DNA of 7,465 nucleotides from T1SED10-198M sp003554345 [NCBI: Candidatus Sumerlaeota bacterium] (GTDB lineage Bacteria; Sumerlaeota; T1SED10-198M), in contig PWGE01000211.1 in NCBI GenBank assembly GCA_003554345.1, forward strand, positions 1 to 7,465, in the 5' to 3' direction. The position numbers and the translations under genes are program-made. Every line of letters begins with the position of its first letter. Within the stretch, counting starts at the first letter, position 1. Positions 575 to 7,465 of this stretch are shown here, piece after piece. Under the pieces are notes generated by a model. The model worked only from the letters and a program-made list of their open reading frames with translations. It was not told the origin of the DNA and did no database searches.

Positions 575-1405
575 TCATATCTTTTTGCAAATAGCACAAA
601 ATCCGCAAAGATAATTATTATATTTACGAAAAACATGGCGTATTTCACGTATTCGCGAAATAGCTGTCTCATCCTCCAGAATATTATAAACAAAATCCAG
701 AGCGGCTATCATTCCTTCATCTTCGATCAATCGTTCTTTTTCCAGCAAAAAAACAGGTCTTTTTATTACATTCACAACCTTAAAACCCTGTGTTTCTATT
801 AATTTTTTCCATTCATTAACACTTTTAGGCCACGCAGGATGACGAACAGCATAAATAAGGTCGCGGCGCATCTGTTCCAAAAAATCTTGTTCCAGGTCGT
901 CAGTTGATATGGCCAGTTCCTGAAAAGCATAACGCCCTTTTTTATTCAACAGACGATACACTTCTTGTAAAATGGTTTTCTTTTTTTCATCAGGATGTAT
1001 TGTCAGCATGGATTCTCCATAAACAACAGACGCAAAGCCCTCAGGAAGATCTACCGAATCAGTAGCATCAACATTGAGACAGCGCCAGTATGGATTTTTA
1101 TCGAGCAAATCGTTCAACATTTGAGCTGCTGATCGGTCCCGTTCAATTGCCGTATAGCTGGACGGTTCGTTCTGTATTGTGAGTCTGGCTGTTACACCCA
1201 TACCGGGTGCATATTCAATAACATGGTCCTTGTTTGATATTTCCAGTTTCGCCAGCATTTTTTTGGTTAGTTCAATTCCTCCTGGTCTCAGCACTCTTTT
1301 CCCAAGGCTCGCAAGAAGCCAGTACCCGGGCATACGGTCCCGTTGAAGTTTATCCCAGGGACGTGAAATGGATTGACGTTCGGACATTCTTACATCTTCA
1401 AACAT
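575..1405 (-). CDS. Class I SAM-dependent methyltransferase with a C-terminal CxxCxxC tail
   Basis: The 276-residue protein has a Rossmann-fold methyltransferase core. Motif I is VIEYAPGMG (62-70), which binds S-adenosylmethionine. The acidic residue ending strand 2 is E88 in YTAIERD. A later VVYGESMLT (127-135) resembles the motif IV region, followed by a helix and strand (KKGRYAFQEL, 155-164). The substrate is unknown. The protein ends YLCGFCAICKKI, so C267, C270 and C273 form a CxxCxxC cluster not part of the methyltransferase fold. ATG 1403-1405 is preceded by GAGGAG nine bases upstream, and lies one base after the TAA of the ATPase gene. It is therefore the last gene of the ABC transporter operon and probably acts on the imported compound or a product of it. 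No clear terminator follows. The family assignment is firm; the role is inference. Confidence 0.88.
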   Translation of the reverse strand: MFEDVRMSERQSISRPWDKLQRDRMPGYWLLASLGKRVLRPGGIELTKKMLAKLEISNKDHVIEYAPGMGVTARLTIQNEPSSYTAIERDRSAAQMLNDLLDKNPYWRCLNVDATDSVDLPEGFASVVYGESMLTIHPDEKKKTILQEVYRLLNKKGRYAFQELAISTDDLEQDFLEQMRRDLIYAVRHPAWPKSVNEWKKLIETQGFKVVNVIKRPVFLLEKERLIEDEGMIAALDFVYNILEDETAISRIREIRHVFRKYNNYLCGFCAICKKI

Positions 1406-1406
1406 T

Positions 1407-2033
1407 TTATATTTCTCCTCCCTTTAAAGTATTACCCGCAAAGTACAGATGCTCTTTTGCCAGCGGAAGCAATTCATCAGGATAATGGGAAACGCAAATG
1501 CATATGGTTTCATTATTATTCAAATACCGTTGTAGAATATGAATAACACCTTGTTTTGTTTCAGCATCAAGACCATTTAAGGGCTCATCCAGCAGTAATA
1601 CATCTGGTTTAATGACTAAAGCTCTGGCAAGTGACACTCTTTGAGCCATACCACCGGATAATTTTGACGGAAAATAATCCGCCGCTTCTTCAAAATTAAA
1701 TTCTTTAAGTATTTGCCTGGCCATTTTTTCAGCTTTCTTGGATGAAACACCCTGATTCCATAAGGGAAGAGCAACATTTTGCCAGGCTGTCTTCCAGGGA
1801 AGCAAACGGGGTGCTTGAAAAACCATACCAATTGTGAGATTTTGTGAAGCATCAATTTTTCCTGAGGAAGGTGGAATAAGTCCTGCAATAAGTCGTAAAA
1901 GAGTGGTCTTACCAGAGCCGCTGGGTCCAGTTATCAGGACAGTGTGATTTGCTTTCCATGTGTAATAAAAATTTCGAATAATAGGTTTATCGCCATAAAA
2001 CATATTCACTGAGAACATGGTAATATACTTCAA
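1407..2033 (-). CDS. ABC importer ATPase, nitrate/sulfonate/taurine type (SsuB/TauB-like)
   Basis: This is the cytoplasmic ATPase that powers the importer encoded just upstream. Counting from the longest frame (GTG at 2048), all motifs are intact: Walker A GPSGSGKTT (41-49), Q-loop VFQAPRLLPW with Q78, signature LSGGMAQRV (130-138), Walker B VLLLDEP (150-156, D154/E155), D-loop GLD and switch H188. FQAPRLLPW is typical of the SsuB/TauB/NrtD subfamily. I place the start at TTG 2031-2033, because GGAGGG lies seven bases before it and its first three bases overlap the permease TGA as TTGA, the usual sign of translational coupling. The frame could start at GTG 2048, but that codon lies within the Shine-Dalgarno-like stretch. 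From TTG the protein has 208 residues, short for the family, ending soon after the H-loop region. The substrate cannot be read from the ATPase. Confidence 0.93.
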   Translation of the reverse strand: MKYITMFSVNMFYGDKPIIRNFYYTWKANHTVLITGPSGSGKTTLLRLIAGLIPPSSGKIDASQNLTIGMVFQAPRLLPWKTAWQNVALPLWNQGVSSKKAEKMARQILKEFNFEEAADYFPSKLSGGMAQRVSLARALVIKPDVLLLDEPLNGLDAETKQGVIHILQRYLNNNETICICVSHYPDELLPLAKEHLYFAGNTLKGGEI

Positions 2034-2794
2034 GAAACATCCCTCCACCGATACGTTCTTCGTAATATAGGTCTCAATAAAAGAAATTCAGATGCTATGG
2101 CTAAAAATAAAACGACGATTACCCATGCCGTCATCCGCTCTGTATTGAGTAAACGGGCATGGATTGCAATAGCGGCCCCCACTCCTTTCTCAGTTCCCAG
2201 AACTTCTGCCAGTACGGTGGCACGTATAGCACTGCATATAACCTGCACCGCCCCGGCAAAAAGTGAAGGAGCTATGGCTGGGAGAAAAAAATGTCGTAAG
2301 CGCATGGCAGGTGATATTTTAAAAACCCGCGCAGTTTCCCGAAGTTCTTCAGTATAAATCCGACTTCCCTGAAGAATATTAACGTACATTATCGGCCAGA
2401 GAATAACGCTTCCAAAAACGATGATCATATTTGAACCTACTCCCATCCAGAACATAATGACAACAATAATAACAACGGGGGGAACAGTCATACATATCCA
2501 CCGAAAAGGCTCAAGAGCTTCCATCAAACGTTTATCAAAAAGAGCAAGTGTTGCTAAAATAATACCGCCGGTTCCTGCAAATAACAAAATCCCACCGATG
2601 CGATAAACTGTCCAGAAGATATTTTCATAAAACGACCGGTCATTCAACATGGCAATAAGAGAACTGAAAGTAGCAAAGGGAGAAGAAATAAGCAGGGGGC
2701 CAGCAAGTATCGATAGAACCCACCATATACCAAGGAGTACCCCCACTCCCAGAAAAATGTAGCGTGAAGGATGTCTGGTTATCTTCACATCCAT
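2030..2794 (-). CDS. ABC importer permease, SsuC/TauC-like
   Basis: This inner-membrane subunit forms the translocation path of the importer. The 254-residue protein has about six hydrophobic segments (roughly 12-32, 67-87, 103-118, 122-140, 174-194 and 223-242). The cytoplasmic EAA loop that docks the ATPase is at about 149-175: ELRETARVFKI followed by RHFFLPAIAP. The conserved EAA is ETA here and the conserved glycine is replaced by lysine. Length and layout match the BPD_transp_1 permeases of the taurine/nitrate/sulfonate class. I choose ATG 2792-2794, with AAGGAG 11 bases upstream and a gap of five bases from the binding-protein stop. A longer frame starting at 2827 would add 11 residues overlapping that gene and has no site of its own. 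The 3' end overlaps the ATPase start by four bases. Confidence 0.92.
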   Translation of the reverse strand: MDVKITRHPSRYIFLGVGVLLGIWWVLSILAGPLLISSPFATFSSLIAMLNDRSFYENIFWTVYRIGGILLFAGTGGIILATLALFDKRLMEALEPFRWICMTVPPVVIIVVIMFWMGVGSNMIIVFGSVILWPIMYVNILQGSRIYTEELRETARVFKISPAMRLRHFFLPAIAPSLFAGAVQVICSAIRATVLAEVLGTEKGVGAAIAIHARLLNTERMTAWVIVVLFLAIASEFLLLRPILRRTYRWRDVS

Positions 2795-2799
2795 GGTTA

Positions 2800-3831
2800 T
2801 CACTTCTCCTTTTCTGCTGCATTCCAAAAATAAAAGTCTTGTGAAGCCGGGACAGTAAAATGCTCCGGAGCCACCTCCTGTAATGTTTGAAGAAAAAGTT
2901 CAATAACTTCCTCTTCTTCACCGGAAGGTGTTGGTTTTCGTGCACTAATCTGAAAAGCGTTTTTAGTACCCTTCAGAGCCGTCTTGTCAGTGGTCAACTC
3001 CTTCAAGAGACCGGCAGCGTTTTCTGGATGTGTCAGGCACCATTCCATAGATTCTTCATAAGCCCGCCAGAAAGTTTGAAGCAGCTCAGTATCCGAAGCT
3101 GTCTCATGCAATGCTGCTATTCCTGCCACCGGTATATGTAGATTTTCCCCCTGTATTGAATTCCAGGTTCCCTGTAAATTCAGGGAGCGGTAATACCTTT
3201 CAGGACTTTTTTCCAAAAGGATTGAAACGTGTGGTTCAGCTATCAAGGCTGCATCTGCTCTTCCTGCGGCTAACATGTTGGCTGCATCCCGGGAAGACTG
3301 AGCGTATTGAATGTGCAAAGTAAAATCAGGATGTTTTTGTTGTAAACTTCGATATAAAGCCTGAAAAAAGATATCAGGATATCGCCCTTTCATCGGGATA
3401 ACAATGTTTCGATTTTCAAGATCTGAAAATGAATTGATTTGTTTATCATTCGACACAATATGAATAACATTTTGCAGCGATCCTCCGATAAAACGTAGAG
3501 GTACTCCTCGGTCATAAAAATTTGCTGCACCTGGCAATGGTAGGCCTACTATATCAACTGATCCATTTAAGATATAGGCAACCAATTGTTCCTGCGAGCG
3601 CCATGGTACAAATTCCAGCTCAATATCTTCCTTTTTCAATGCCTCAGTCCTGACCATATGTAAAAGTGGGGGCGCCAGCAACCCATCAGAAGGTGCCGAA
3701 AGCTTCAAAATCTGCCTTTCTTTATATTCTTCTTTATCACCATCAGAAATATACATGAAGACAATCAATATGCCTATAGCACCAAGAAGGGCTATAAGCA
3801 TATTTCTGAGAGTTTTACTTATTTTAATCAT
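2800..3831 (-). CDS. Membrane-anchored NMT1/SsuA-like substrate-binding protein
   Basis: This is the solute receptor of the ABC importer. The 343-residue protein begins with a short basic segment and one hydrophobic helix (about 11-29, LIALLGAIGILIVFMYIS), then a two-lobed periplasmic domain. Family features include APSDGLLAPPLLHMV near 47-61, a NGSVDIVGLPLPGA stretch (about 89-102) where ligand-selectivity residues usually sit, an IVIPMKGRYPDIFF hinge segment and AGRADAALIAEPHVS (about 189-203). The latter is typical of NMT1, SsuA and TauA-type proteins. There is no lipobox cysteine and no obvious signal-peptidase site, so the helix is probably a permanent anchor. ATG 3829-3831 has AGGA nine bases upstream; a TTG three bases earlier is an alternative start. 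It begins three bases after the pilin-like gene stops. The ligand could be a sulfonate, nitrate, pyrimidine or another small compound; the sequence does not decide. Confidence 0.88.
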   Translation of the reverse strand: MIKISKTLRNMLIALLGAIGILIVFMYISDGDKEEYKERQILKLSAPSDGLLAPPLLHMVRTEALKKEDIELEFVPWRSQEQLVAYILNGSVDIVGLPLPGAANFYDRGVPLRFIGGSLQNVIHIVSNDKQINSFSDLENRNIVIPMKGRYPDIFFQALYRSLQQKHPDFTLHIQYAQSSRDAANMLAAGRADAALIAEPHVSILLEKSPERYYRSLNLQGTWNSIQGENLHIPVAGIAALHETASDTELLQTFWRAYEESMEWCLTHPENAAGLLKELTTDKTALKGTKNAFQISARKPTPSGEEEEVIELFLQTLQEVAPEHFTVPASQDFYFWNAAEKEK

Positions 3832-3834
3832 CAA

Positions 3835-4473
3835 TCAATATCCTAAATTAACATGTCTCTGGGATCGGAAAATATTACCACCAGAAATGGTGCCGTTCGT
3901 AGGATCATAAAATCCTTTATAATAATCCGTGCTTTCCGGTCCACCAATATTTGCCGGTGATAATGAGCCCCTTGTCAGATCGGGACCACACCCCCACATT
4001 GCCCAGTCTCCCAAAAATTGTAGACGATTTTCAAAGGCTCCACCTGGTCCAGGCCATGGCGGCTGTAAATCACGTCTTTTCTCAAGTGCCAGATTAGTGT
4101 AAAAATAGTTTTTCCCTTCTTTTGGCGGGACATACTCTGTAGCAAAAGGATCCAGTGGAATTGATGTCAGATATGCTGTTGGCGTTGTAATCGCCCTCGA
4201 TAAGAACTTGTGAGCTGATGCCATTTCAGTATTTTGCAATTCAATTTCTCCGGTTTGTGAGTTTATACCGCTCGAATAAGGATACACATTATGATCTACA
4301 TTATACGATTCAAGCGCAGTTGCTATCGTACGCAGATCAGACTTGGATCTGGAGATCTTTGCCCGTACCTGAGCCTGCAAAAAATTAGGAATGGCTATTG
4401 CAGCTAGTATAGCAATGATCGCCACCACGATTAAAAGTTCAATCAAGGTAAACCCTTTTTGTCGTTTATACAT
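3835..4473 (-). CDS. Type IV pilin-like pseudopilin (PulG/GspG-like)
   Basis: The 212-residue protein starts with a six-residue basic leader and a class III (prepilin) signal. Cleavage is predicted between G7 and F8 in QKG/FTLIELL, and the invariant glutamate E12 is position 5 of the mature protein. A long hydrophobic helix (8-30) follows, then an amphipathic helix ending in ATALESYNVDHNVYP. The globular part carries TSIPLDPF (103-110), GDWAMWGCGPD (155-165) and YDPTNGTISGGNIFR (189-203). Such domains occur in the large pseudopilin families of PVC-type and related phyla. These proteins assemble into short inner-membrane fibres for type II secretion or type IV pili, but no assembly ATPase, platform or prepilin peptidase is in view. 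AAGGAGG lies seven bases before the ATG. The gene sits 19 bases after a FeoB-associated peptide and three bases before the binding protein, an unusual place for a pilin. Confidence 0.92.
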   Translation of the reverse strand: MYKRQKGFTLIELLIVVAIIAILAAIAIPNFLQAQVRAKISRSKSDLRTIATALESYNVDHNVYPYSSGINSQTGEIELQNTEMASAHKFLSRAITTPTAYLTSIPLDPFATEYVPPKEGKNYFYTNLALEKRRDLQPPWPGPGGAFENRLQFLGDWAMWGCGPDLTRGSLSPANIGGPESTDYYKGFYDPTNGTISGGNIFRSQRHVNLGY

Positions 4474-4492
4474 GAACTATCCTCCTTTATGT

Positions 4493-4624
4493 TTATTCTT
4501 TTTTTTTACAATTATTACAACCTGTACAGGGACCCTCATTATTTTTTAACCCTCTGAAAACTGCATAGCACAGTATAATCATCAACAGTAAAGAAGTTAT
4601 GAGATATACCATAAGGTCTTTCAT
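4493..4624 (-). CDS. FeoB-associated Cys-rich membrane protein (43 residues)
   Basis: This short gene reads ATG at 4622-4624 to TAA at 4493-4495. It has one membrane helix (about 5-23, MVYLITSLLLMIILCYAVF), a basic junction (RGLK), and a C-terminal tail GPCTGCNNCKKKE. The C-x-x-C-x-x-C cluster is at C33, C36 and C39. This is the pattern of the FeoB-associated Cys-rich family, small proteins encoded directly after feoB in ferrous iron uptake loci and thought to support FeoB at the membrane, perhaps by binding iron. No clear Shine-Dalgarno is seen (GGAATAAAAG lies upstream), and the start is 17 bases after the previous stop, so translation may be coupled. No intact feoB is present; the ORF before it appears to be a relic. 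The pilin-like gene begins 19 bases downstream. Confidence 0.75.
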   Translation of the reverse strand: MKDLMVYLITSLLLMIILCYAVFRGLKNNEGPCTGCNNCKKKE

Positions 4625-4640
4625 GTTCTTTTATTCCATT

Positions 4641-5060
4641 TCATAATGTTATCTTCTGATAGATCACCACTACCACCAACCATTCCAGACAGGTAGAATA
4701 AAAAAGGAAAATGAAGTACATATATAACAATGGCTTTGTGTTCTTATAATACCTATGAGCCGTATTCTTCTCGACAATAATCGCAGAAATATTAAGCGCT
4801 GATTGCAAATTATTCTTTAATATATGACGCTTTATTCTTATCTCAGACGTTCTTTTATGATTCCGGCTTTTTATCCTGTTAAGATAGCATTCTAAACCCT
4901 TGACCATTTCCCTTTCTGCCTGAAAAAGAGCATGTTGCCCATTAGTTTTAGCAATACTTATTCTTTCAGCCACATAGGTTCCCCCTACCTCATTTTTTAT
5001 TTTTTCAGGAAACAATATGTCTTCTAAATAATTTCCTATGGATAGTGATTTTAATGACAT
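4641..5060 (-). pseudogene. 139-codon ORF, probably a feoA/feoB deletion relic
   Basis: The frame is open and well placed: AAGGTGG lies nine bases before the ATG, and a strong promoter with a DtxR-type box stands upstream. The N-terminus, MSLKSLSIGN, resembles FeoA proteins (M-x-L-x-x-L-x-x-G). The C-terminus, FLFYSTCLEWLVVVVIYQ (118-135), fits the end of FeoB, where a segment like YQTGLAWxVAFxVYQ closes the last membrane helix. ISAIIVEKN (91-99) may echo the ISAI-x-x-E stretch before that helix. The middle (about 15-88) is charged, lysine- and arginine-rich and unlike either protein; no G1 or G3 GTPase motif is present. The following FeoB-associated gene supports a former feoAB locus. It may instead be an unrelated small tail-anchored protein with one helix at 111-134. 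The similarity is by eye and short. Confidence 0.45.
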
Positions 5061-5085
5061 AATAAGAAACCACCTTCAACTTAAT

Positions 5086-5103
5086 TGTTAGGCTTGCCTA
5101 ACA
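5086..5103. promoter_or_regulatory. DtxR/IdeR/MntR-family operator
   Basis: TGTTAGGCTTGCCTAACA is a perfect 8-bp inverted repeat around a TT centre. It contains TTAGG-N4-CCTAA, the core recognised by iron- or manganese-dependent repressors of the DtxR family. It begins right after the -10 element of the promoter at 5112-5139, covering the predicted start of transcription, and lies 25 bases before the ATG at 5060. Metal-loaded repressor would block transcription here. Which metal, and which family member, cannot be told. Confidence 0.72.
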
Positions 5104-5111
5104 TATTTTAT

Positions 5112-5139
5112 ATTTTATAAATCTTACTCTGAATGTCAA
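5112..5139 (-). promoter_or_regulatory. Strong sigma-70-type promoter of the feo relic/pilin/ABC unit
   Basis: On the minus strand a perfect -35 TTGACA (5134-5139) is followed after 16 bases by TAAAAT (5112-5117), one mismatch from TATAAT. Transcription would start near 5105, at the edge of the DtxR-type palindrome. No terminator is seen between here and the methyltransferase end at 575, so one transcript may cover all seven ORFs. Confidence 0.7.
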
Positions 5140-5447: not shown

Positions 5448-5515
5448 CTATTCTCGGTACCTGGCATAGAAAAACAAATATGCTGCAATAAGAACAGCCA
5501 AAGCAATGGGCATTA

Positions 5516-5575
5516 CTGACACTGAACCTGGTAAGAGTATTTACAGCGGTATGTTTCTCTGTTCTCTTTCCCGGG
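5516..5575. repeat. Repeat copy 1 (internally deleted form)
   Basis: Bases 5516-5559 match 5887-5930 at 40 of 44 positions, starting CTGACAC and ending TTTCTC. Directly after it, GTTCTCTTTCC (5561-5571) matches sequence found about 120 bases further on in the other copy (around 6057-6069). Copy 1 therefore looks like copy 2 with about 127 bases lost between two TTTCTC hexamers. Confidence 0.75.
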
Positions 5576-5873: not shown

Positions 5874-5886
5874 ATGACGAATTTTT

Positions 5887-6075
5887 CTGACACGGAACAT
5901 GGCAAGAGTATTTACAGCGGTATATTTCTCGGTGTTCTTATCTCCATCCTTTTCATCTTGTTCAATATTCTGTCTTCCAGTTCCCTGCATTCTTTTTCTG
6001 GAGTATTTATCCTGCAATTATTGTCCATCGATGCAACATTTTCTGGGGCTGTTTCTCTCTTCTCTTTCCGGTAAG
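5887..6075. repeat. Repeat copy 2 (longer form)
   Basis: The left end (5887-5930) and right end (about 6051-6075) both match copy 1 at 5516-5575, while the central ~120 bases are unique. On the plus strand a 66-codon frame (5874-6074) reads through it with a hydrophobic stretch, GIFLGVLISILFILFNIL. On the minus strand a 74-codon GTG frame (5912-6136) covers the same bases and is highly charged. Three of the four differences in the 44-bp part fall in one codon phase, which is silent in either of two frames, so the repeat may once have been coding. Neither frame is recognised and neither has a good ribosome-binding site. Confidence 0.6.
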
Positions 6076-6132: not shown

Positions 6133-6894
6133 TCACACCCCGGAAATACGGTCTTTATATGTTTCCAGGGCTTCATGGAGTCTTTCCCGTGCCGTCGTAT
6201 CGCCCGGAATATTATGTGATGGATGTATATAGAGTTTTTTCCCTTTTTCAACAAGTAATTCTGCTACAGTGGTAATGACCATCCAGACGCAGGTCACAAA
6301 GGCAATAGTAGAAACCGGGCCAACTTTATCAACATGTCCGGGCAAAGGCACTGATGCATCCTGCGCCGGGACACAGGTATCAACCGTCACATCTGCCAAT
6401 TCAAAGAGATTTTTTCCGCTGGAATGCCTGGTTTCGGTAGCCTTAAATTCAGCAGCAGAACCCATAGCAACAATCGGAATATTGAGCTTTTTTGCTTCGA
6501 GAGCAATATCAATATTAACATTGTTTATCCCCGAATGGGAAAATATCCACATGGTATCTCTTTCGTCAAAACGGTAGCTCTTCATGATTTCCCTGCCGTA
6601 TCCTTCAACACGTTCTAAAAATACAAATTGATTTACACCCATTTCTCCGACAATATGAGTAAAGAATGAAAGGGGGAGTTCAATCATGGGATGAAAACCA
6701 ACAAACCCCCCGATACGGGGATACATCTCTTCTACCGGCAGAGTGGCATGACCACATCCAAAAGTATGAACCCAGCGCTTTTGGGCAATGGATTCAGCCA
6801 TATACAAGGCTGCTTTCCTGATGTTGTCTAATTGGGTCTTTTCAATAGAACCCATAACTGATTGGGCATTTTCCAACCACATTTTTGCCAGCAT
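6133..6894 (-). CDS. SIS-domain sugar isomerase-like protein (UPF0309-type)
   Basis: The 253-residue protein is a soluble SIS-domain protein, a fold that binds phosphosugars in isomerases, etherases and deglycases. It opens with a helical segment, then HTFGCGHATLPVEEMYPRIGG (43-63), equivalent to the FGTGHSH phosphosugar loop of the UPF0309 group. A second loop, IFSHSGINNVNIDIALEAKK (117-136), is the SIS phosphate-binding site. TETRHSSGKNLFELADVTVD (153-172) and VPAQDASVPLPGHVDKVGPVSTI (175-197) are also characteristic. AGGAG lies seven bases before the ATG, and the gene begins 18 bases after the ROK kinase gene stops, so the two are co-transcribed. The likely role is isomerisation or cleavage of a sugar phosphate made by the partner kinase. 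The exact sugar is not evident; amino sugars or N-acetylmuramate-like compounds are candidates by analogy. Confidence 0.88.
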   Translation of the reverse strand: MLAKMWLENAQSVMGSIEKTQLDNIRKAALYMAESIAQKRWVHTFGCGHATLPVEEMYPRIGGFVGFHPMIELPLSFFTHIVGEMGVNQFVFLERVEGYGREIMKSYRFDERDTMWIFSHSGINNVNIDIALEAKKLNIPIVAMGSAAEFKATETRHSSGKNLFELADVTVDTCVPAQDASVPLPGHVDKVGPVSTIAFVTCVWMVITTVAELLVEKGKKLYIHPSHNIPGDTTARERLHEALETYKDRISGV

Positions 6895-6912
6895 AACACA
6901 TCTCCTTTTATA

Positions 6913-7465
6913 TTACATTTTTCTGAGAATAACTCGCTTGATTCCAAAAAGAACCCCCTCACTTCCCAGCAAAGAGATGGTAATATTCACCGTACCCTTT
7001 TGAGCAGGAGAAAGACGTTTATTCACCTCACATTTCAGAGAAGATAAAAACCGGGAGGCCGGACCGAACAATCCTCCGCCCAGCACAATAAGCTGTGGAT
7101 CCAGAATGCTTGTACAATCTGCAATTGCCCCAGACCAGTGTTCAATGACATTATCAAAAATTCTCTGGGCTGCTTTATCACCTTCCTCATATGCCTTAAA
7201 GATATCCCGTGCTGTAAGTTCATGTTCCGAAATATCGGCTAACTGTCCGCTATATTCCGGAAAACGGGCCAATATTTCCCGGGTTGTGTTAATTATGCCC
7301 GATCCGGAGGCATAATTTTCAAGATGGTTCACTGAACAAGGACTTTCATGAACCCTTCCTTTTATCGTAAGCCAGCCCATTGAACCTGAAAGACCACGAT
7401 GGCCGCCATAATATGTTCCATTTATAAATATCCCGGCCCCTATGCCGGTGCCAATAGCTATAAAA
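6913..7465 (-). CDS. ROK-family sugar kinase, N-terminus outside the window
   Basis: The frame enters from the right edge and gives the last 183 residues. The glycine-rich ROK signature FIAIGTGIGAGIFINGTYYGG is visible first, and ILDPQLIVLGGG (120-131 of the fragment) is the nucleotide-binding segment of the second lobe. ROK kinases phosphorylate glucose, N-acetylglucosamine, N-acetylmannosamine, allose and similar sugars. Here the usual E-x-G-H sugar/zinc motif reads S-M-G-W (28-31), and the C-x-C-G-x-x-G-C-L-E zinc motif is reduced to SPCSVNHLENYASG, keeping only the final glutamate. The catalytic aspartate and N-terminal ATP loop lie beyond 7465 and cannot be checked. An ATG at 7380 is internal, since the frame is open and homologous upstream. 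The gene is followed 18 bases later by the SIS gene, its probable partner. Confidence 0.9.
   Translation of the reverse strand, partial: FIAIGTGIGAGIFINGTYYGGHRGLSGSMGWLTIKGRVHESPCSVNHLENYASGSGIINTTREILARFPEYSGQLADISEHELTARDIFKAYEEGDKAAQRIFDNVIEHWSGAIADCTSILDPQLIVLGGGLFGPASRFLSSLKCEVNKRLSPAQKGTVNITISLLGSEGVLFGIKRVILRKM

Follow-up and report, generated by a model that had tools for sequence, protein, structure and literature searches.

A pilin gene tied to a putative iron-starvation importer operon in Candidatus Sumerlaeota

The stretch of DNA considered here, hereafter the window, is an entire contig of 7465 bases (C32) from a metagenome-assembled genome (MAG) of Candidatus Sumerlaeota, and it carries an operon in which the gene for a type IV pilin-like protein directly precedes the genes for an ATP-binding cassette (ABC) importer and a methyltransferase. 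In a survey of 40 genomes of the phylum Sumerlaeota, the binding protein of this importer occurs in six, and in five of these, representing four families, a pilin gene is situated directly 5' of it; hence, the linkage of pilin and importer is not due to chance. Moreover, an upstream palindrome is present at all four operons that combine a pilin with the importer (window, G028, G006 and G039; survey genomes are cited by G codes, G000 being the MAG of the window, and their families by f codes). The recurrence of a pilus-subunit gene beside an apparent iron-starvation switch and an import pump suggests that a fibre assists these cells in collecting iron or an iron compound. We assign a probability of roughly 0.6 to the reading that the operon serves import under iron starvation and has a pilin of its own.

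The source MAG is fragmented (2.55 Mb, 454 contigs, 88% complete). The operon comprises seven intact minus-strand open reading frames (ORFs) between 575 and 5060 behind one promoter-like site, and the gaps between consecutive ORFs, counted from the promoter side, amount to 16, 19, 3, 5, -4 and 1 bases. The tight spacing described in a first-pass annotation of this DNA is borne out in full, including the mere 3 bases that separate the pilin stop codon from the ATG start of the binding-protein gene. Likewise, no terminator above chance was detected between the operon genes (4 stems in total compared with a chance mean of 3.5), in line with the earlier description; two terminator-like stems of 5 base pairs lie on the minus strand, both within ORFs. 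The features are as follows:

5112..5139, minus strand: promoter-like site TTGACA-16-TAAAAT, 11 of 12 consensus matches
5088..5101, no strand: perfect DtxR-type iron-box palindrome TTAGGCTTGCCTAA, a short way downstream of the -10 element
4641..5060, minus strand: ORF of 139 amino acids, possibly a remote or degenerate DtxR-family protein
4493..4624, minus strand: membrane peptide of 43 amino acids with a Cys cluster, FeoB_associated-like (PF12669, 18.3 bits, cut-off 27)
3835..4473, minus strand: type IV pilin-like protein (pseudopilin) of 212 amino acids (Pfam N_methyl and T2SSG)
2800..3831, minus strand: NMT1/SsuA-type substrate-binding protein with an N-terminal hydrophobic helix (PF09084)
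2030..2794, minus strand: ABC permease (PF00528, 65.5 bits)
1407..2033, minus strand: ABC ATPase with a TTG start (PF00005, 105.7 bits), overlapping the permease gene by 4 bases
575..1405, minus strand: class I S-adenosylmethionine-dependent methyltransferase (Pfam methyltransferase matches)

Linkage of pilin and importer across the phylum

The six genomes with the binding protein are G000 (f1), G039 (f7), G006, G013 and G028 (all f5) and G036 (f2), with identities to the protein of the window of 37-39% in G039, G006, G013 and G028 and of 25% in G036. The permease gene follows directly 3' of the binding-protein gene in five of the six, and the ATPase gene is next in order in G000, G039, G028 and G013. 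In G006, the contig ends inside the permease gene, and a partial ATPase gene at the edge of a second contig precedes the methyltransferase gene. Relatives of the methyltransferase exist in six of the 40 genomes including that of the window, and the gene is the last of the operon in G000, G028 and, over the contig break, G006. The full unit of pilin, binding protein, permease, ATPase and methyltransferase is present in two genera, and a third holds it split over two contigs. A chance fusion of operons, which the first-pass annotation had considered, is at odds with this recurrence, and the synteny it proposed to look for in related genomes is there, since the pilin gene is kept next to the transporter elsewhere. 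A search with a permease alignment returned four relatives, all from Candidatus Sumerlaeota; a contig scan with a single binding-protein sequence found no relatives, and the one genome searched outside the phylum (G040) gave no match.

The pilin of the window bears the prepilin methylation motif (N_methyl PF07963, 42.8 bits, cut-off 21.2; TIGR02532, 37.8 bits, cut-off 16.3), matches the T2SSG domain weakly (25.0 bits, cut-off 21) and falls below the equivalog cut-off for GspG (TIGR01710, 61.9 vs 88.85 bits). In the operons of the window, G028 and G039 the pilin is the most conserved product, being 67-70% identical between the window and the other two, compared with 47-53% for the permeases of three relatives, 45-48% for the ATPases and 57% for the methyltransferase of G028. 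Past the first 35 residues, identity to the pilin of the window is 64-66% for the two linked pilins from G028 and G039 and 36-41% for those next in rank. In a profile-type comparison of bit scores, the window pilin reaches 329 (G028) and 314 (G039), and at most 162 with any other pilin listed. In a tree of 57 pilins, which constitute a part of those known in the phylum, the three sequences form one clade (95/99), and the linked pilins of G006 and, less surely, of G036 fall outside it. The occupation of the same operon place by different pilin lineages speaks for a function of the pilin at this position, yet it also means that the exact pilin is replaceable.

Pilin genes are numerous in the phylum, all 40 genomes yielding 11 to 56 matches at E 1e-15 and the genome of the window 17. 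The next gene could be read for 52 of the pilins sampled, likewise a part of those known; at eight of them it is an ORF on the same strand no more than 30 bases away, and in three of these eight the neighbour is the binding protein described here. Within the genome of the window, 13 pilins were examined, 12 of them with a readable next gene, and a close same-strand neighbour is found at the pilin of the window only. As a separate observation in the same genome, contig C166 (L024) carries a DtxR-family gene (2442-2840, minus strand, by Pfam) and, about 345 bases downstream of it, a pilin gene (1461-2096, minus strand), the variable part of which contains a His/Asp-rich stretch, HDHDHGHDHDH, that looks as if it were metal-binding.

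The identities of the last five ORFs, from pilin to methyltransferase, are backed by Pfam and NCBIfam. The binding protein belongs to the NMT1/THI5 family (37.0 bits, cut-off 20.5), and the same operon encodes a permease above the BPD_transp_1 cut-off (26.4) and an ATPase above that of ABC_tran (25). The NCBIfam cut-offs of SsuA_fam (53.8 vs 163.5 bits), SaoP (44.8 vs 295), ntrB (40.8 vs 209.05) and TauC (32.7 vs 342) are not reached. An AlphaFold model of the binding protein (predicted local distance difference test, pLDDT, 85) has its nearest fold in 3hn0 of Parabacteroides (Z 30.0, root-mean-square deviation, rmsd, 2.4, 276 residues aligned), and PqqT (Z 27-28, rmsd 3.1-3.3) ranks ahead of SsuA and the CmpA/NrtA group, the matches to SsuA, TauA, Thi5 and CmpA/NrtA having Z scores of 20-24; this fold search named relatives and no substrate. 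Read by eye, the binding proteins of the window, G028 and G006 seem to be membrane-anchored or to have termini resembling those of lipoproteins. The methyltransferase passes two weak cut-offs (RrnaAD, 25.7 bits, cut-off 24; Methyltransf_11, 23.3 bits, cut-off 21.2) and fails that of the DVU_1556 equivalog (52 vs 155 bits).

Outside the phylum, relatives of the importer were encountered in 58 plasmid records, with binding proteins 26-36% identical among the 12 best-ranked. Sixteen of these records, 15 of them annotated, were opened; they were picked for variety and are not independent, two regions from the Arcobacter group being near copies. NnrS accompanies the ABC genes in 11 of the 15 annotated regions and a TonB receptor is present in nine, in four of which it directly precedes the binding protein; some regions also hold ferritin, FTR1, HutX, heme, iron ABC, nap, nor or hcp genes, and no pilin is annotated in the 15 regions opened. 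These clusters in Campylobacterota and Proteobacteria plasmids, composed of NMT1-type ABC genes and NnrS and often including a TonB receptor, carry general annotation only, and no named substrate was found for them. Relatives of the methyltransferase occur in 19 plasmid records, five of which were opened: in Providencia the gene ends a cluster of TonB receptor, Crp/Fnr, iron-type ABC and cupin genes, in Vibrio it lies beside Crp/Fnr and cupin genes with a TonB receptor about 4 kb off, and in Tunicatimonas it follows truncated hemoglobin and cupin genes near ric and nosZ, the plasmids of Rhizobium and Rhodococcus offering no clear link.

Iron-type boxes and iron genes

The promoter-like site upstream of the operon is the best of 16 such sites between 400 and 5300, a number near chance (mean 12.9). 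A metal-regulated promoter, as proposed in the first-pass annotation, gains support from the likeness of the adjoining palindrome to the boxes of feoAB operons in some relatives. Exact TTAGGCNNGCCTAA sites number two in the 40 genomes, one being that of the window and the other lying 31 bases 5' of dtxR-feoA-feoB in G005. At the other linked operons, TTTGGCATGCCAAA is the sole exact copy in the whole genome of G028 and likewise in that of G006, and in both it stands 5' of the linked pilin. In G039, the immediate neighbour 5' of the pilin is a DtxR-FeoA gene, which has TTAGCCACGGCTAA on its 5' side, and an imperfect TTAGCCTTGTCTAA lies between this gene and the pilin. In G036, TTAGCCAAGGCTAA is found 5' of dtxR-feoA-feoB. 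Altogether, boxes near the operon start characterize eight of 39 feoB loci (G005, G036, G012, G016, G004, G021, G017 and G027); the last six belong to the nine f3 and f5 genomes that have FeoB, and their boxes are TTTGRCATGCCAAA-like. Boxes were also seen at FecB-type genes in two genomes and at lone pilins.

The wider pattern TTTGRCNNGYCAAA occurs in families f3 and f5 at 28 sites forwards and 12 backwards. At seven of its 47 sites in the survey a pilin motif follows the box at a distance of 79 to 202 bases; these seven sites lie without exception in f3 and f5 and include both ABC operons there, and the binomial probability of this count is 4e-5 at a chance rate of 2% and 0.0025 at 4%, both rates being our own estimates. 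Fourteen sites share a CATG core, five of them before a pilin, three before feoA-feoB, two before a FecB-type binding protein and four elsewhere; this core was chosen after the sites had been seen, and hence all 47 sites of the wider pattern were then examined. A table of pilins against boxes (score >=12 at 7 of 57 pilins and at 25 of 621 other genes) includes loci fetched for their box and was not used as a test. One of the seven pilins, on contig C132 of G021 (L242), lies 131 bases past a TTTGACCGGTCAAA box. Through the genes with which it is associated, the box thus qualifies as an iron box in some genomes of the phylum, where pilins make up a notable share of what it marks. By extension, the shared boxes point to iron control of the operon, in which a repressor would presumably bind the palindrome.

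A FeoB_C match is missing in six of the 40 genomes, namely in four of the six with the binding protein (G000, G006, G013 and G028) and in two of the 34 others. G039 has a lower-scoring FeoB adjoining a Fur gene, and G036, in which the permease is not adjacent, has a complete dtxR-feoA-feoB. In this small sample, the pattern fits an importer able to stand in for FeoB. A TonB receptor exceeds the cut-off in three of the 40 genomes, and the six that encode the binding protein are not among them; no TonB receptor match was obtained in the genome of the window, and according to Pfam neither a TonB receptor nor NnrS is among the proteins of the window.

Further loci bring pilins, boxes, iron genes or relatives of the methyltransferase together. 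In G017 (L179, 4651-8213), a box precedes a FecB-type binding protein, a FecCD permease and an ATPase, followed by a pilin that has its own box and may or may not share the transcript of the FecB set. G027 likewise has this box 5' of a FecB-type protein, after which a permease was read by eye and the contig ends. The dtxR-feoA-feoB genes of G036 (L102, 961-6059) are succeeded by a small ORF, a pilin and a CbiX-family protein, with gaps of >100 bases before the pilin. In G015 and G025 (L113 and L111), a methyltransferase of the family found in the window adjoins a pilin downstream of a box, which is imperfect in G025, and this pair is divergent from a NorB-type nitric oxide reductase gene (by Pfam in G015, by eye in G025). 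Pfam recognised NorB and ScdA/hemerythrin in G015, and an NnrS gene read by eye in the same cluster was dropped, Pfam having returned a sub-threshold COX1 match only. In addition, G006 has another copy of the methyltransferase gene, preceded at a distance of about 50 bases by an imperfect box.

The first ORF of the operon had been described as a feo-like relic, an assignment that is not supported here, since neither the FeoA nor the FeoB profile built locally matches 4641-5060. Local FeoA, FeoB and Fur profiles gave no match in the three minus-strand frames of 4481-5110, and the ORF has no Pfam, NCBIfam or PHROG family match. A local DtxR profile made from the N-terminal part of five sequences yields 15.6 bits in these frames and 17.0 bits for the ORF itself (E 6e-4 among 2370 ORFs; the next ORF, which is not DtxR, 12.2 bits), compared with 170 bits and more for true DtxR proteins, and an earlier profile of four full-length sequences gives about 0 bits. 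A degenerate regulator is therefore possible, the likeness to DtxR being a weak hint that depends on the profile. The second ORF, named a FeoB-associated peptide, encodes a 43-residue membrane peptide with a Cys cluster, and its match to the family profile is only sub-threshold. Nor does the operon contain a pair of FeoA and FeoB, and no FeoB_C match was obtained in the genome of the window.

The surroundings of the operon contain further genes. At the left end of the contig, 2-115 on the plus strand encode the last 37 residues of an apparent ferritin or bacterioferritin, convergent with the operon (PF00210, 18.0 bits vs a cut-off of 24.5; the bacterioferritin matches are weak, E about 0.1). 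Upstream of the operon and on the same strand, 6133-7464 encode a sugar isomerase family protein with a SIS domain and, truncated where the contig stops, a ROK kinase, apparently a separate unit, and the spacer 5' of the operon contains a 56-base direct repeat (5513-5568 and 5884-5939, 86% identical). A scan with Rfam produced a single match, to the L20 leader, which was sub-threshold and is taken as chance.

Proposed mechanism and competing explanations

If the operon does serve iron-starvation import with its own pilin, scarcity of iron would cause a DtxR-type repressor to leave the promoter palindrome, and a single transcript would then give rise to pilin, binding protein, permease, ATPase and methyltransferase. 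The cargo of the ABC proteins would be iron itself or, with greater likelihood, a small compound related to iron, such as a chelate or cofactor, and the importer may thereby stand in for FeoB or back it up. The pilin is predicted to assemble into an envelope fibre serving this import; in such cells, which mostly have no TonB receptors, the fibre could for instance convey the substrate as far as the outer membrane or across it. The methyltransferase might act on what is imported or on a partner protein. Gene order and its conservation, the shared boxes and the FeoB pattern are read from the sequences, and the remaining elements of this scheme are inferred. The first-pass annotation had likewise envisaged an uptake system with a fibre component; the linkage of pilin and importer is conserved in the survey, and the fibre may take part in uptake. 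A more far-reaching version, which we consider unlikely, would make uptake pilus-dependent and TonB-independent: a dedicated pilin fibre would catch an iron compound outside, and the anchored binding protein would receive it from the fibre through the outer membrane. Pilins would then have been recruited to iron import more than once, namely alongside importers of the NMT1 and FecB types and alongside a feo operon. The notion of a fibre substituting for a TonB receptor derives from the position of the pilin gene directly before the binding protein, the place that a TonB receptor takes in four of the 15 plasmid regions, and from the occurrence of such receptors in three of the 40 phylum genomes.

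Several observations weigh against the preferred reading. Regarding the linkage, the transporter of G013 has no adjacent pilin, the binding protein of G036 has no permease directly 3' of it, and no methyltransferase match was obtained in G039, G013 and G036. As to the pilin, a prepilin peptidase (PF01478) was not found in the 88% complete MAG of the window, compared with matches in 12 of 14 control genomes, and the structure model of the pilin (pLDDT 53) is too poor to use. With respect to regulation, neither the transporter of G013 nor the pilin/binding-protein pair of G036 has a box of this kind, and 31 of the 39 feoB loci have none by the filter used, in part through cut contigs. Neither box pattern is enriched across the phylum as a whole: over the 40 genomes, TTTGRCNNGYCAAA has 47 sites forwards and 59 backwards, and the TTAGGCNNGCCTAA pattern read backwards has 24 sites compared with two forwards, so that the weight of the box in the window rests on its position and not on its count. 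The association between the absence of FeoB and the binding protein (Fisher p 0.0022) is uncorrected for kinship or MAG incompleteness, and three of the four FeoB-less genomes concerned belong to one family. Finally, related binding proteins bind pyrroloquinoline quinone (PQQ), sulfonates or thiamin precursors, i.e. organic ligands, and we know of no relative that serves as an iron carrier.

Among the competing explanations, one separates switch and task: some pilins of the phylum would be made under iron starvation for attachment, motility or mineral contact, and the pilin of the window would share the transcript without taking part in import. This is possible, if doubtful. The seven pilins behind TTTGRCNNGYCAAA boxes are compatible with it, given that two are in ABC operons (G028 and contig C39 of G006) and one lies behind the FecB-type importer of G017, and no transporter was noted at the other four (G004 C12, G035 C130, G006 C108 and G021 C132; three of these neighbourhoods were read by eye, that of G021 C132 was not); the position of the linked pilins of G006 and G036 outside the clade of the window pilin points the same way. 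Nevertheless, such a separation leaves unexplained both the tight placement of a pilin before the binding protein in several lineages and the higher conservation of the window-type pilin relative to the transporter. Another explanation concerns the cargo, which might not be iron at all: the importer could instead carry a redox cofactor (e.g. PQQ), a precursor of thiamin or a compound linked to nitrogen oxides, for which the cells would have a need under iron shortage or on exposure to nitric oxide. The near fold of PqqT, solved with PQQ as ligand, the NnrS genes beside the nearest plasmid transporters in 11 of the 15 annotated regions opened, some with nap, nor or hcp close by, and the divergence of the methyltransferase-pilin pair of G015 and G025 from a NorB-type gene make this conceivable, and we hold it tentatively as a less probable account. 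It is opposed by the TonB receptors in nine of the same 15 plasmid regions and the ferritin, FTR1 or heme genes in some, by the match of the box to that of some feoAB and FecB-type operons, and by the tendency of FeoB to be missing.

Two further explanations are easier to set aside. The pilin could belong to a pseudopilus that exports the binding protein or a different product, as opposed to a pilus for substrate uptake, an idea to which its weak T2SSG match and its sub-threshold GspG score lend some colour; the apparent anchors or lipoprotein-like ends of the binding proteins argue instead for retention, no secretion gene was recognised by Pfam among the operon products, and we judge this proposal quite improbable. 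A chance union of unrelated operons or an assembly artefact is hardly credible: the fragmentation of the MAG and the one relative without an adjacent pilin would permit it, yet the same order recurs in other assemblies from other families, the binding proteins of which are only 25-39% identical to that of the window.

A pilin genetically tied, in several lineages, to an importer with iron-type boxes constitutes a concrete candidate for the way in which bacteria devoid of TonB receptors move scarce and bulky nutrients over the outer membrane. Iron-linked pilins would moreover be one possible reason for the multitude of pilin genes per genome in this phylum. In addition, the importers encoded with TonB receptors and NnrS on plasmids, a poorly named group, may link iron supply and nitric oxide stress.

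Comparison with known systems

No description of the pilin-importer arrangement was found in the literature searched on Sumerlaeota, pilins and iron regulation, NnrS and PqqT. Two papers on Sumerlaeota (PMC8092238, PMC10866078) name, in the portions available, type IV pilus twitching in one case and siderophore transport in the other, and these portions of either paper do not name the operon.

The closest ABC importers found outside the phylum are those of the compact clusters of TonB receptor, NMT1/SsuA-type ABC and NnrS genes in Campylobacterota and Proteobacteria, several of which are near iron, heme or anaerobic and nitric oxide genes. They differ from the operon of the window in often having a TonB receptor (nine of the 15 regions) and NnrS (11 of the 15) in place of the pilin and the methyltransferase, and Crp/Fnr or Fur-like regulators in several cases. 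Within the phylum, the FeoAB operon with its DtxR-FeoA regulator has the same kind of operator box at eight of 39 feoB loci, and in G039 the DtxR-FeoA gene is located directly 5' of pilin and transporter; the operon of the window, by contrast, contains neither FeoA nor FeoB and encodes an ATP-driven importer of another family instead. The HmuTUV-like importers composed of FecB, FecCD and an ATPase are likewise ABC genes with iron-type boxes in the phylum, and the set of G017 precedes a pilin; their binding-protein and permease families (PF01497 and PF01032) are unrelated to those of the window, and the pilin of G017 is separately boxed.

With the NitT/TauT-type importers (SsuABC, TauABC and NrtABCD) and with PqqT, the importer of the window shares a common binding-protein fold and the broad permease and ATPase family, whereas it stays under the equivalog cut-offs given above and has other operon partners and regulation. 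Type IV pilins and GspG pseudopilins, in turn, have the N-terminal methylation motif and hydrophobic helix in common with the pilin of the window, as well as the weakly matched T2SSG domain. Unlike GspG, this pilin remains under the equivalog cut-off, and in contrast to the sampled pilins of the phylum, which seldom have a close downstream neighbour, it is followed within 3 bases by the binding protein of an importer.

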